DNA of 48,033 nt, from contig DYLH01000010.1 in assembly GCA_020722185.1 (NCBI GenBank), positions 1 through 48,033 on the forward strand, written 5' to 3'. Of the stretch, positions 1 to 48,033 are shown piece after piece (positions within the stretch are counted from its first letter, which is position 1; the number at the start of each line of letters is the position of its first letter). The position numbers and the translations under genes are program-made. The DNA is from Candidatus Avelusimicrobium gallicola. Its GTDB lineage: Bacteria; Elusimicrobiota; Elusimicrobia; Elusimicrobiales; UBA9959. The notes under the pieces were generated by a model. It was not told where the DNA came from and did not search any database. It saw only the letters and a list, made by a program, of their open reading frames with translations.

Positions 1-150
1 AACTTTCCGCTAGACTTTTTTAGGGAACCCGAAGTTCACTGAAAAAGTATATTCACAGTTAAAATTAGCTGATTTTGAGGCGAGACAACTGAGCCTTTCA
101 AAATATAATGACATTTTGGCTGAGCCGATTTTCAAGCGAGACAAGGAACG
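1..150. repeat. Intergenic repeat element, copy 1 (partial at window edge)
   Basis: The first 30 bases resemble the right half of the 8-nt periodic elements seen elsewhere in the window (units such as AACTTTCC). Positions 45-69 match 46860-46884 at 23 of 25 bases. A separate direct repeat of 18 bases lies at 71-88 and 127-144 (16 of 18 identical, 56-bp offset), sharing the core GCGAGACAA. The element precedes murB. Its left part is outside the window, so its extent is unknown. Confidence 0.5.
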
Positions 151-12956: not shown

Positions 12957-13120
12957 GGTTCACTAAAAACTACATTATCTTAAGCGCGACAGTTCTTAAG
13001 CGCGTAAGAAAACAGCGCCAAAGTTCGAAAGTTATTTGGTAGTTTCTTCTTCCGCGCTTTTGCGCTTTCGTGCTTACGCTATTTGGCAATATGGCAGTCA
13101 TGTCTTTCGCTCTGTAGCTT
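12954..13120. repeat. Intergenic 8-nt periodic hairpin element, copy 2
   Basis: It starts at the TAG stop of the preceding gene with TAGGGTTCACTAAAAAC. A direct repeat TCTTAAGCGCG occurs at 12978-12988 and 12994-13004. From about 13001 the DNA reads in 8-nt steps (GCGTAAGA, then CCAAAGTT, CGAAAGTT) and then the complementary sense (TTTTGCGC, TTTCGTGC, TTACGC), so GCGTAAG on the left can pair with CTTACGC on the right. The right end merges with the end of the convergent phosphopentomutase-like gene. The two flanking genes converge on it. Confidence 0.55.
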
Positions 13121-21600: not shown

Positions 21601-22290
21601 ATGAAAAAAATAGTTTCATTGGTGGCATTACTAGTATCTTGCGCTTCATTTGTCTTGGCAAAATCACAAAACATGGAGGAGCTTAAAAGCGGCTCTTTTT
21701 CCATAAATCTTAGATCAGAAGTGGATATCCCCGTTCCTTCTGCTCCAACAAGAGAAGAAGTTTCACAAGACATTGTGTATAAATTCCAGAATCTTAAAAA
21801 TGAGCTCCGGATGCTTGAGAACGACACTACATGGCTTAGAAATGATATAGATCGGCTTGAACAAGATGCCAGAAGAATGGCTCAAGGATATTCATCGGCT
21901 TTTTTTGCCAGTGATTTAAGAAATATGCATTATAATATGTCCAGGCATTATAATGACATTTCTAGACTTTCTTTGGATTTGAGGAACCTGATAAATCTTG
22001 CACAAAAGGATGAAAAACTTAATGGACTGGCTAGAGATATGGATTTTAGTGTTATGAATCTGGACAATAGATTCAATTTTGAAGTCAGAAATTCAGCACA
22101 GAATCTGGAGATAACCGTCAGGAGAATTGATCCAAAAATTATAGGATATGACGCGCAGTGGAATGCTTCCGATATGTCTCGCTATGCCAGAGATATAGCA
22201 TTCAAAACTAAAGATATGCGTTGGGATATCTCTAGACTTTTGGATTTGACCAGTGGCAAAGCTAAAACGGGAAAGGTCTCAGATAAGTAA
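21601..22290 (+). CDS. Exported helical protein of unknown function
   Basis: A 229-residue protein with an N-terminal export signal. Cleavage could be by signal peptidase I after VLA, or lipidation at the Cys of LVSC; both fit. The rest is strongly charged and helical, with Leu/Arg/Asn-Asp heptad-like repeats (RNDIDRLEQDARRMAQG, SRHYNDISRLSLDLRNL), suggesting a coiled-coil periplasmic protein. I recognise no family. GGGAGGG lies 4 nt before the ATG. It stands alone between the pullulanase gene and a repeat element. Confidence 0.8.
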   Translation: MKKIVSLVALLVSCASFVLAKSQNMEELKSGSFSINLRSEVDIPVPSAPTREEVSQDIVYKFQNLKNELRMLENDTTWLRNDIDRLEQDARRMAQGYSSAFFASDLRNMHYNMSRHYNDISRLSLDLRNLINLAQKDEKLNGLARDMDFSVMNLDNRFNFEVRNSAQNLEITVRRIDPKIIGYDAQWNASDMSRYARDIAFKTKDMRWDISRLLDLTSGKAKTGKVSDK

Positions 22291-22295
22291 TGCAG

Positions 22296-22425
22296 AATCA
22301 TTGCATAGGCGTGTAAGACATTATTTGGTAAGTGCGAAAGTCAGTAAGCTAAAAAGTGCTAAAGTTTTTACATATTGTGGCACTTGCGCACTTTCGCGCT
22401 TTTTCATTCTTTCTGTTGCATGTTT
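22296..22425. repeat. Intergenic 8-nt periodic hairpin element, copy 3
   Basis: Between the helical-protein gene and the convergent LUD gene the DNA falls into degenerate 8-nt units: GTAAGTGC, GAAAGTCA, GTAAGCTA, AAAAGTGC, TAAAGTTT, then after a centre the opposite sense TGTGGCAC, TTGCGCAC, TTTCGCGC. The right half, read as complement (GCGCGAAA, GTGCGCAA, GTGCC), repeats the left-half motif, so the whole can fold into a long imperfect hairpin. There is no open frame with gene character here. Confidence 0.55.
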
Positions 22426-22435
22426 TGCGGTTTTT

Positions 22436-28569: not shown

Positions 28570-29416
28570 TTATAGCAAGGAACTTCAAAAAAGAAGAGAA
28601 AAACTTTTAAAATCTAAAGCATATATAAAGGCCTATGAGGATATAGATTTTCTAAAAGAGGATGAACAGAGACCTATAAGACTCCAGCTCGAACTGCTTA
28701 AACCAGAGACCATACTTCATAAGTATGGGATAAAGAATACTGTGGTGTGTTTTGGCAGCGCTAGAACTTTTGAAAAAAAAGAGGCAGTGAAAAGAGTGGC
28801 TTTCATAGAAAAAATGTTGAAAAATAAACCAAATGACCCCGATCTTAAATTAAAACTTAAAAACGCCAAGGCTTTATTGAAATCTTCAAGATACTATGAA
28901 GAGGCAAGGCGTTTTGCTTATATGGCGGGAAGCAAATTTATAAATGGGAATGAAAAGCTTACTGTGGTAACTGGCGGTGGACCTGGAATAATGGAAGCTG
29001 CGAATAGAGGAGCTTACGAGGCCGGAGAAAAAAATATAGGTTTGAACATAACTCTACCTATGGAGCAGGGGGCGAATCCATACATATCGGAGGAATTTTG
29101 TTTTCGCTTTCATTATTTCGCTATAAGAAAAATGCATTTTGTAATGAGAGCGAGGGCTTTGGTTGTATTCCCCGGAGGATTCGGGACTATGGATGAGCTT
29201 TTTGAGGTTCTTACCTTAGTTCAGACTGGGAAAAAACGCAAACTTCCCATAATACTTTTTGGACCTGAATACTGGGAAAATACAATAAATTTCAAGAATA
29301 TGGCTGATTGGGGATATATTTCGTATCAAGATGTGAATATTTTTAAATACGCTAAAACTGCAGAGGAAGCGTGGGATATAATAGAGGAATTTTACAATGA
29401 ACACCCAATTAGTTAG
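28562..29416 (+). CDS. LOG-family protein (cytokinin-riboside phosphoribohydrolase-like)
   Basis: A 284-residue member of the LOG/TIGR00730 family, misnamed lysine decarboxylase in older annotation; characterised members hydrolyse nucleoside 5'-monophosphates to base and ribose 5-phosphate. Signature motifs: TGGGPGIMEAANRGA and PGGFGTMDELFEVLTLVQ. It is about 90 residues longer than compact LOG proteins because of a charged N-terminal extension with KLKLKNAKALLKSS, as in the longer bacterial forms. AAGGAG precedes the ATG. The TAG stop lies in the left terminal repeat of an intergenic element. Confidence 0.9.
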   Translation: MTSYSKELQKRREKLLKSKAYIKAYEDIDFLKEDEQRPIRLQLELLKPETILHKYGIKNTVVCFGSARTFEKKEAVKRVAFIEKMLKNKPNDPDLKLKLKNAKALLKSSRYYEEARRFAYMAGSKFINGNEKLTVVTGGGPGIMEAANRGAYEAGEKNIGLNITLPMEQGANPYISEEFCFRFHYFAIRKMHFVMRARALVVFPGGFGTMDELFEVLTLVQTGKKRKLPIILFGPEYWENTINFKNMADWGYISYQDVNIFKYAKTAEEAWDIIEEFYNEHPIS

Positions 29417-29568
29417 GCTTCACTGAAAAGTTTATTAGTGAGAGAATATAAAATAGAGGTTAAGTTTGAAGGTTAGAATGTTAGAAAGTTTAAAAGTCGT
29501 AATTTCTCAAACTTTGAAACTTTAGAACTTTCGAGCTTAAGAACTAATCTCTTTTTCAGTGCCCCTAA
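29413..29568. repeat. Intergenic 8-nt periodic hairpin element with terminal inverted repeats, copy 4 (most complete)
   Basis: Left end TTAGGCTTCACTGAAAAG (29413-29430) and right end CTTTTTCAGTGCCCCTAA (29551-29568) are imperfect inverted repeats. Between them run 8-nt units: TAAGTTTG, AAGGTTAG, AATGTTAG, AAAGTTTA, AAAGTCGT, then opposite sense AAACTTTG, AAACTTTA, GAACTTTC, GAGCTTAA. The left end includes the TAG stop of the LOG gene; the right end runs into the ribosome site of the zinc-ribbon gene. There is no coding capacity. Confidence 0.6.
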
Positions 29569-46043: not shown

Positions 46044-46847
46044 ATGAAAACTAAGTATATACCGCCATATTGGGCTTTTGAATTTCGCGGGCATTGTCCA
46101 TTCATTCATGCTCTTTGGTTATAGAATTGGTAAACTGGCTATGGAGAAGCTGGGAGTAGAGAGAGAAAAAGACCGTGGCTTTTTTGTATTTCCGGAAATA
46201 GGCTTTGGGCATACCACTACTTACTGTGATGTCCACAGGATTAATGCTCAATGGCATTGTTATGTTTTTTCTTCTATAAGTTATGGCAGAGAAAAACTTA
46301 TAATTTTTAAAACCGCTCTTCCAATACTAATTGTCGCTACATTGCTATCTCCTTTCGGAGACAGGACGGGACAGTATCTGCCGCGTGAGATTCTTTTATG
46401 GATGTTTATAGGATTTCTTATTTTTGCTGGTTCTATAATGTTGTTTTATAAAGCGCAAATAAAAACAGCTGAAACTACTGCGAGAAAAATGATCATGGCA
46501 GGTATATGGGTTGGCCGGCGGCGGAATACTTGGGCGGATTGCTTGGAGTGGGTGGTATAAATTTTATAGTGCCGGTTTTGGTTTGGTTAGGTTTTGAACC
46601 AAAGAAAGCCTCGGCTAGCACAGCCTTTATAGTTATTTTTTCCTCTTTTTCGGGATTTTTAGGACATGCCTCGCTTGGAAATCTCTCTCCTATGCTTTTG
46701 ACTTTCTGCGCTGCTGGCTCTATATTCAGCGCTTTACTTGGCGCATATTTATTGCGCAGAAAATTAAGCCAGAAACAAGTGAAGATTTCAATAGGTGTAA
46801 TACTATATCTGATAGCGATAAAAATGGCATTTGATTTACTAAAATAG
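46044..46847 (+). pseudogene. Broken TSUP (TauE/SafE-like) permease gene
   Basis: At least two frame changes are needed to read it. It starts MKTKYIPPYWAF, shifts to FAGIVHSFMLFGYRIGKLAM from about 46078, continues to KMIMAGI, then shifts to GGLLGVGGINFIVPVLVWLG and FEPKKASASTAFIVIFSSFS to the TAG at 46845. These blocks are the second-half TSUP signatures. The central region also looks shortened. The start lies 1 bp after the RND stop, so it was once the last gene of that operon. The TAG stop is also the left end of repeat copy 5. Confidence 0.75.
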
Positions 46848-46960
46848 GGACCGCTTAAGAAGTATATTCACAATCAAAATTAGCGCGTAAGTTCCAAAGC
46901 TCTAAAGTTCGAAAGTTATAAAGTTCAAATTTTCAAACTTAATTTCTTAATCTCTATTTT
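46845..46960. repeat. Intergenic 8-nt periodic element, copy 5
   Basis: It begins at the stop codon of the broken TSUP gene (TAGGGACCGCTTAAGAAG). Positions 46860-46884 match copy 1 (45-69) at 23 of 25. Then tandem 8-nt units: GTAAGTTC, CAAAGCTC, TAAAGTTC, GAAAGTTA, TAAAGTTC, AAATTTTC, AAACTTAA. A complementary right half is less developed than in copy 4. No gene lies in the 200-bp gap up to the next promoter. Confidence 0.55.
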
Positions 46961-47026
46961 CTATTGACTGTTTTTTTATATCTATTGTTTGTTTTTGTAC
47001 TCATCCGTATTGAATAATTCTAAAGT

Positions 47027-47055
47027 TCGACAAGGCTTTAATATATGCGTATAAT
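47027..47055 (+). promoter_or_regulatory. Promoter of the second arsR, predicted leaderless
   Basis: TCGACA (47027-47032), 17-bp spacer, perfect TATAAT (47050-47055), then 7 nt to the ATG at 47063. It fixes the start: the upstream ATG at 47045 would be within the promoter. Confidence 0.7.
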
Positions 47056-47062
47056 TGTATAT

Positions 47063-47437
47063 ATGAAAAGCTGTCGCGATATAGAGATTTCAATCAAAGA
47101 GCTTAAGGCGCTAGCAGACTACAGACGACTTATGGTGCCTTCTCTGTTAGCCTATTCCTCTATGGAACTATGTGTGTGTGAACTGGTGGCTGCGCTTGGC
47201 GAAAGTCAGTATAATGTTTCACGAGCCCTTTCTGAACTTAGCAATGCTGGAATAGTCAAAAAGAAAAAATATGGACATTGGCCTATGTATTCACTGTCGC
47301 AAAAAGATACTCCACTGTACAACTATATGCTTAGGCTATCAAGTCCGCGCCCCTGTTGCAGGATTATAGCCAGAGATATAGATAGATTAAAAAAAAGATT
47401 GAGTTTGAGAAAAAACGGAATTTGTATTGTAGTTTGA
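47063..47437 (+). CDS. arsR: Second ArsR-family metalloregulator
   Basis: A 124-residue winged-helix repressor, different from the first. KALADYRRLMVPSLLAYSSM is followed by LCVCEL (Cys37, Cys39), the arsenic-type sensor site, and the recognition helix YNVSRALSELSNAG. A Cys pair in SPRPCCRII lies near the end. It should control the arsC-acr3 genes downstream, both now damaged. Confidence 0.88.
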   Translation: MKSCRDIEISIKELKALADYRRLMVPSLLAYSSMELCVCELVAALGESQYNVSRALSELSNAGIVKKKKYGHWPMYSLSQKDTPLYNYMLRLSSPRPCCRIIARDIDRLKKRLSLRKNGICIVV

Positions 47438-47464
47438 AATTTATAAATTAGGAGAGGTGTTGAT

Positions 47465-47877
47465 ATGAAAAAAATACTTTTTTTATGCACTGGAAATTCT
47501 TGTCGAAGTCAGATTGCAGAAGGGTGGGGGAGGAAATTGTTGGATGGAAAGGCCGAGTTTTTTTCGGCTGGCACTAAACCGGGCATCTGGATTCAAGAGC
47601 TGTAAAGGTTATGGCTGAGGCTGGATTGGATATTTCAAATCACAGGTCTAAATCAGTTGATGAATTTAAAGATATAGATTTTGATATAGTGATAACTGTT
47701 TGCGATAAGGCGCGTGAAACTTGTCCAATATGCTTTGGTAAAGCTGAAAAAATTCATAAAAGTTTTCAGGACCCTCCATTTTTGGCAAAGGATGCAAAAA
47801 GCGAAGAAGAAGCCCTTGCCCATTATCGTCGTGTGCGTGATGAAATAAGGGATTTTGTGAAGACATTACTTTTGTAG
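47465..47877 (+). pseudogene. arsC: Arsenate reductase gene arsC (thioredoxin-coupled type) with a single frameshift
   Basis: The first frame gives the phosphatase-like loop [10 protein letters not shown] (Cys8, Arg14) and reads to AGTKPG, then stops at 47604-47606. Shifting by one base near 47580-47582 restores [20 protein letters not shown] and the redox pair VCDKARETCPICFG, to a TAG at 47875. One missing base in the GGG run explains it. Length after repair is about 138 residues, normal for ArsC. AGGAGAGG precedes the ATG. Real lesion or sequencing error cannot be told apart here. Confidence 0.85.
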
Positions 47878-47892
47878 TTTGAGGAGAATATT

Positions 47893-48009
47893 ATGAGCGA
47901 AAATATCAAAAAAATGAATTTGTTTGAAAAGTATCTAACCCTGTGGTGCATGTTGTGTATGCCGGTTGGTATTGCCATCAAAGAATTTTCTAAGTTTAGA
48001 ACTTTGTAA
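47893..48009 (+). pseudogene. acr3: N-terminal fragment of an ACR3-type arsenite efflux gene
   Basis: GAGGAG precedes an ATG that opens MSENIKKMNLFEKYLTLW, the typical start of ACR3 permeases, and continues into the first membrane segment (CMLCMPVGIAIKEF). Then the sequence switches to repeat units and stops after 38 codons (RTL-stop at 48007-48009). The remaining 300 or so residues are absent up to the window end. It was the arsenite exporter partner of arsC. Confidence 0.7.
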
Positions 48010-48033
48010 CTTTACTAGCCTACAAATTAATAT
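47990..48033. repeat. 8-nt periodic element, copy 6 (cut by window end)
   Basis: Units CTAAGTTT, AGAACTTT, GTAACTTT, ACTAGCCT follow directly on the acr3 coding sequence and supply its premature stop. Right part outside the window. Confidence 0.5.

Follow-up and report, generated by a model that had tools for sequence, protein, structure and literature searches.

The six places examined here are best explained, for the most part, as old and eroded copies of a MITE-like family of DNA transposons. We hold this reading, a non-autonomous family with a two-armed interior grown by slippage, to be moderately probable. In the mechanism which we propose the transposase of an IS5-type element, supplied in trans, would recognise the termini GGGTTCACTGAAAAAGT and would insert copies at A+T-rich TANNTA sites with duplication of 6 bp. 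Selection would spare the intergenic copies, often immediately after a stop codon. In the interior, where degenerate 7-8-nt units form two inverted arms, replication slippage would add, delete and duplicate entire units, and thereafter the units would drift by point mutation.

The window, i.e., the whole stretch of 48,033 nt that was analysed, is the entire contig C52 of genome G000 (G+C 37% in the window). G000 is a 1.6-Mb draft in 60 contigs, 92% complete, and the genome-wide statistics cover about 99% of it. Contigs C2, C6, C18, C25, C29, C30, C31, C44, C52 and C58 start or end within the repeats described here. Since contig termini so frequently lie inside them, the assembly probably broke there and the copy number is probably underestimated. 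The sequences quoted in the original prediction are found where it had placed them. The features of the window are:

2-29, minus strand: an array-free MITE which exits the contig start, represented by its outer end (TIR type GGTTCCCTAAAAAAGTCTAGCGGAAAGT); 1 mismatch to the genome-wide end pattern.
33-80, plus strand: second MITE copy with left end AGTTCACTGAAAAAGTATATTCACAGTTAAAATTAG and no 8-nt array, inner limit approximate; the identical end type is present in C21, C30 and C44.
12957-13104, no strand assigned: copy 2, period-8 score 38; left end with 4 mismatches.
22290-22425, no strand assigned: copy 3, an array element at a convergent gene pair, period-8 score 32.
29416-29565, no strand assigned: copy 4, a complete two-armed element with inverted ends; empty site in G001 and G002.
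29461-29500, plus strand: purine arm of copy 4, AGTTTGAA GGTTAGAA TGTTAGAA AGTTTAAA AGTCG, read from the sequence.
29508-29548, minus strand: pyrimidine arm of copy 4, like units inverted, read from the sequence.
46847-46990, limit approximate, no strand assigned: copy 5, period-8 score 43, the maximum of the genome.
47986-48033, no strand assigned: copy 6, an array fragment inside acr3, truncated by the contig end; period-8 score 33.

Six places had been proposed to share 8-nt units, and the proposal proves correct in large part. Copies 2 through 6 indeed have period 8; copy 1 (1-150) has no array. At this place one element stops with its right end (2-29, minus strand) and, after 3 nt, another opens with its left end (from 33), beyond which a further dispersed repeat follows. 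The 25-bp block reported to be common to copies 1 and 5 at 23/25 positions does exist. The sequence belongs to a family of mobile elements, of which it forms the subterminal end (GTATATTCACAGTTAAAATTAG), and its source in copy 1 is the left end of the second MITE, from 33. The dispersed repeat at 80-150 (ACTGAGCCTTTCAAAATA...GCAAGGAACGAGGAGCGAGC) is also located at C28:3225 and C54:47253 and is probably another MITE family.

The array-bearing copies are preserved to different extents. In copy 2 a stop codon is immediately followed by the left end GGTTCACTAAAAAC, the array, the centre TTTGGTAGTTTCTTCTT and the inverted array; no right end is recognisable, and synteny at this locus is broken in the congeners. 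Copy 4 has the inverted ends that had been claimed, GGCTTCACTGAAAAG at 29416-29430 and CTTTTTCAGTGCCCC at 29551-29565. Copy 5 consists of a degenerate left end GGGACCGCTTAAGAAGTATATTCAC, the array and a AAACTTAATTTCTTAATCTC arm; its right end is lost. It aligns with C32:10488-10617, and the C32 element retains a right end, GGTTCACTTAAAAAGTC.

The period of 8 nt extends well beyond the window. Autocorrelation over all intergenic DNA of G000 lies above first-order shuffles (lag 8, z=9; lag 16, z=6; lag 24, z=10), with excess self-similarity at lags 8, 15-16 and 24. A local period-8 score of at least 33 is reached in 36 intergenic regions versus 2.8 after shuffling, a score of at least 36 in 21 versus 0.8. 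Period 7 has a smaller excess (18 regions versus 3.0), and no comparable excess over shuffles exists in these regions for periods 5, 6 and 9-12. At a cut slightly lower than 33 there are about 44 period-8 arrays genome-wide, copies 2, 3, 4, 5 and 6 among them. The family is far larger than six. The array elements are about 120-200 bp long, multi-copy and without an apparent ORF of their own, in line with the earlier statement that they code for nothing.

In a typical copy an end of the type GGTTCACTGAAAAAGT leads into a run, e.g., GAGAATAGAAAATAGAGATTAAG or ATATTCACAGTTAAAATTAG, and then into units AAAGTTNN or AAGCGCNN. The arms meet at a short centre (TTTAGTAGTTTGTTTTTT in some copies) and the opposite side follows in inverse order. 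In G000 the cores of the units are AAAGTT and AAGCGC, with a period of 8 and inverted arms. All of the 32 stronger arrays in G000 have a left arm rich in purines and a right arm rich in pyrimidines; the other intergenic regions of this genome, taken as control, split evenly (127/243). The original prediction had been right to set these elements apart from CRISPR, which calls for a constant repeat with spacers of 25-40 bp: here 8-nt units are joined head-to-tail without spacers.

The copies align over most of their length, on either strand, with clean indels of 8, 17 and 24 nt. Such whole-unit gaps separate copy 5 from C32 (17 nt) and C22 (8 nt), and copy 4 from C38 (24 nt). Within the arms identity falls with distance, 0.51, 0.46, 0.42, 0.39 and 0.37 at lags 8-40 above a baseline of about 0.28, where lags 24-40 are the fair part of the decay as lags 8 and 16 served in array selection. 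Units resemble those next to them most, and the differences between copies amount to entire units; this points to slippage, and we infer that the arms grow by replication slippage.

The terminal inverted repeat (TIR) of the family, GGGTTCACTGAAAAAGT, is common to array-free MITEs of G000. It is also carried by complete MITEs in another Elusimicrobia genome and in a Flavobacteriales genome. Ends with at most 1 mismatch are present at 18 places in G000, and not one of six shuffled patterns has a match; the genome-wide end pattern has 18 places in G000 and its reversal 0. The long end pattern, at up to 2 mismatches, has 18 matches in G000, and 60 relatives have no match at all. At the arrays the situation is mixed. 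With up to 4 mismatches the left end is detected at 14/44 arrays and the right end at 11/44, compared with 11% and 7% of control places. With up to 3 mismatches TIR GTTCACTGAAAAAGT is found on the left of 8 and on the right of 6 of the 44 arrays (controls, 5% and 3.5%), where about 2 each were expected. TIRs are clear on copy 4 and on a handful of further elements (C15, C30, C5, C11) and are missing on most arrays. Their enrichment at array edges links arrays and ends, yet intact inverted ends are exceptional: from most arrays the full pair was either lost or was never present.

A scan of the genome collection with a shorter end gave 54 stretches, mainly from Elusimicrobia JAAYVG and Flavobacteriales WFNC S010_51. 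There are 31 complete MITEs of 104-399 bp with the same ends (Elusimicrobia JAAYVG/CALEIX, Flavobacteriales WFNC), and these have a 6-bp, TANNTA-like duplication (the paired flanks are 83% identical, shuffled pairs 65%; z=8.2). In S010_51 (L317/L320) an ORF for an IS5-type transposase (NF033578, E=3e-74, which falls short of the curated cut-off; PF13586, E=4e-22) begins 350 bp inward of the left end GGGTTCACTGAAAAAGT. The right end ACTTTTTCAGTAAACCC lies on another contig, and both flanks are TATATA; the reading frame upstream in this transposase copy is broken. As this transposase carries such ends, the ends belong to IS5-type elements. A transposase of this type probably moved the array-bearing copies.

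Several facts speak against the MITE reading. No clean 6-bp duplication is present on array-bearing copies in G000, and one or both of their ends are mostly unrecognisable. Neither a full transposase of the IS5 type nor an autonomous element was found in G000, at 92% completeness, and relatives such as G003, a genome of another genus, have many arrays that lack these ends. MITEs commonly lack a partner transposase, and there is no strict requirement for one. Other candidates were set aside. The single DDE_Tnp_1 gene of G020 is without these ends. PF05635, the 23S intervening-sequence protein, considered as a gene of the element, has no match in G000, a weak result as the control has no match either. 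The TIR pattern has no match in viral contigs.

A non-autonomous mobile family, as had been suspected, is supported by the dispersed homologous copies, the IS-type ends, two empty sites and an interrupted acr3 gene. The orthologous loci were compared with those of the congeners G001 and G002 (about 76% identity to G000), and the sites of copies 3 and 4 are empty in both. At copy 4 the aligned gene blocks are 169 bp apart in G000, 21 bp in G002 and 28 bp in G001. At copy 3 the aligned genes are separated by 204 bp in G000, by 77 bp in G002 and by about 81 bp in G001. Since the congeners are only about 76% identical, absence at these sites could be loss. At the place of copy 3 the congeners have a short G+C-rich inverted repeat, then T, between convergent genes; this repeat is terminator-like, and in G000 the array element occupies its spot (22290-22435).

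The interrupted gene, acr3, begins at 47894, and copy 6 starts after about 30 codons. The peptide upstream of copy 6 matches positions 1-23 of 327 of the acr3 model TIGR00832 (E=8e-4). The interruption is at the contig end, and the contig stops inside. The surrounding region (47045-48033) is a decayed-looking ars operon with arsR, an arsC with a frameshift near 47590, and the acr3 cut by copy 6.

Arrays of this kind are not confined to G000. In CALEIX an identical end is followed by long degenerate 7-8-nt arrays made of other words, e.g., ACAAGNNC (L165, L167, L193). In G003, of 73 intergenic regions sampled, 23 have period-7/8 arrays; 20 of these run from purine to pyrimidine, and no TIR of the present type is found at up to 1 mismatch. 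Short two-armed arrays are present at loci of G004, G015 and G020. The intergenic DNA of G001 shows no periodicity. Triple AAAGTTNN units are in large excess in G000 (52 versus 4 in the control) and less so in G003 (38 versus 14), and only in these two. Among 25 IMG/VR contigs with AGTAAA heptamers the majority is one-armed, and both arms are present in one phage lineage (L376, L377, L388, L391, L392). There, at L377:7078 and in the other four, a clean heptamer array, CAGTAAA/CAGTGAT ... ACTGATC/ACTGGCC, occupies a gap from a stop to a start codon; a search of phage records with this locus matched the neighbouring stretch only. A conserved order of units across genera looked suggestive, but permuted orders score nearly as high and it was dropped. 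Because arrays in other genera and in phages are often without these ends, arrays can be separated from IS5-type ends. The arrays may be an older and wider phenomenon, later enclosed between ends in G000. The MITE reading accounts for the spread in G000 better than for the origin of the arrays.

It is conceivable, if rather unlikely, that the arrays were made in place and independently of transposons. Slippage-prone synthesis of 7-8-nt units from both sides of an intergenic break or nick, followed by joining, would build the two arms, and the nearby transposon ends would be there by chance or capture. Growth in place would suit the direction of the purine strand, 5' to 3' toward the centre in 32/32 arrays of G000 and 20/23 of G003, and the fact that G003 is richer in arrays yet has no TIR at up to 1 mismatch. 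It would also suit a unit vocabulary that varies by genus, the two-armed heptamers of the one phage lineage and the fall of similarity with unit distance. Yet the copies in G000 share long ordered sequence in the arms and the centre, unlike the products of local growth, and TIRs are enriched at array edges. With even more reserve one may consider all two-armed purine-to-pyrimidine 7-8-nt arrays as a general intergenic class of bacteria and phages, generated by an undescribed kind of synthesis in which both sides of a break are extended step by step with slippage and then joined in the middle. If this were true, known heptamer repeats and MITE-internal arrays would be special cases of it.

Short degenerate direct repeats, inverted between two ends, have the look of the subterminal binding sites in eukaryotic hAT and CACTA elements. 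The arrays resemble this layout. The units might accordingly be protein-binding sites, either subterminal sites of the transposase or sites of a host regulator; a role as regulator sites has been proposed for TAACTGA heptamers (PMC4679880). We consider this improbable: adjacent units are more alike than distant ones, the vocabulary of units changes between elements and genera, and a period of 8 does not keep phase with the DNA helix.

A conserved and structured RNA, whether a terminator, a riboswitch-like element or a small RNA, encoded or embodied by the elements, is highly improbable in spite of the imperfect inverted symmetry, the slightly better fold of copy 4 alone (z -2.1) and some enrichment at convergent gene pairs (9/27 with both flanks known versus 50/323): the mean folding z against shuffles is -0.47 over 16 elements, arms swapped in from others pair as well as the own arm (10 long-armed elements), the consensus fold of -2.3 kcal/mol contains only one pair with a two-sided change, and Rfam reports only a tRNA in the window and no family for the elements. 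The structured RNA family suggested earlier is thus largely refuted, and the long imperfect hairpin reduces to a symmetry of orientation.

A transposon family with a repeat-filled interior has precedents. The BrickBuilt MITE of Porphyromonas gingivalis (PMC4596501) is likewise intergenic with a tandem array inside; it has about 20 copies per genome and inverted ends resembling IS5-family elements. Many of its copies are also without intact ends, and genomes differ in their presence or absence. BrickBuilt units, however, are 23 nt long, near-constant and run in one direction, whereas the present units are degenerate, 7-8 nt long and set in two inverted arms. The 23-nt unit is absent here, the period being 8. 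Further, the ends GGGTTCACTGAAAAAGT differ from those of BrickBuilt, and complete relatives have the 6-bp TANNTA duplication. The TAACTGA repeats of Beggiatoaceae, Cyanobacteria and Bacteroidetes (PMC4679880) are alike in being dispersed, short-period intergenic arrays, patchy over distant lineages, with a mechanism of spread that is not known. They differ in that the heptamer is constant, nearly always direct and mostly located just upstream of start codons, and the abstract reports no transposon ends. Exact TAACTGA direct repeats are not the units of the present arrays, the cores of which are AAAGTT and AAGCGC.

The IS5-family element of S010_51 and its MITEs share the ends, and those MITEs carry 6-bp duplications; their interior is without 8-nt arrays and the transposase was not found in G000. 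REP/BIME and attC-like palindromes are short extragenic palindromic elements, too. They are set apart by description: REPs have constant units of 20-40 bp with tags and attC sites have integrase boxes, neither of which was noticed here. The claim that no such family has been described holds for the exact layout, of which no description was found in the open-access literature searched; BrickBuilt (PMC4596501) and the TAACTGA repeats (PMC4679880) come close. The family resembles known repeat-filled mini-transposons without matching a known one.

Uncultured bacteria commonly have intergenic DNA filled with repeats, and an explanation is seldom given. For the present family the analysis yields a rule of layout (period 8 and two arms in a fixed orientation), evidence for movement and candidate transposon ends, and it makes an RNA function unlikely. 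The orientation rule extends to a related genus, where the unit words differ and these ends are lacking. The origin of the arrays thereby becomes a testable matter, the choice lying between the transposition of a fixed element, growth by slippage and synthesis at break ends.

Finally, G000 has at C41:9508-10008 (L325, L328) a standalone protein of about 165-190 aa which corresponds to the N-terminal DUF772 part of IS5-type transposases. A tie to array-bearing genomes was considered and dropped since array-free congeners carry one too. It is present as a single copy in 32 of 37 genomes of the family, and at three loci its gene adjoins thymidine kinase and epimerase genes. It looks like a domesticated transposase domain.
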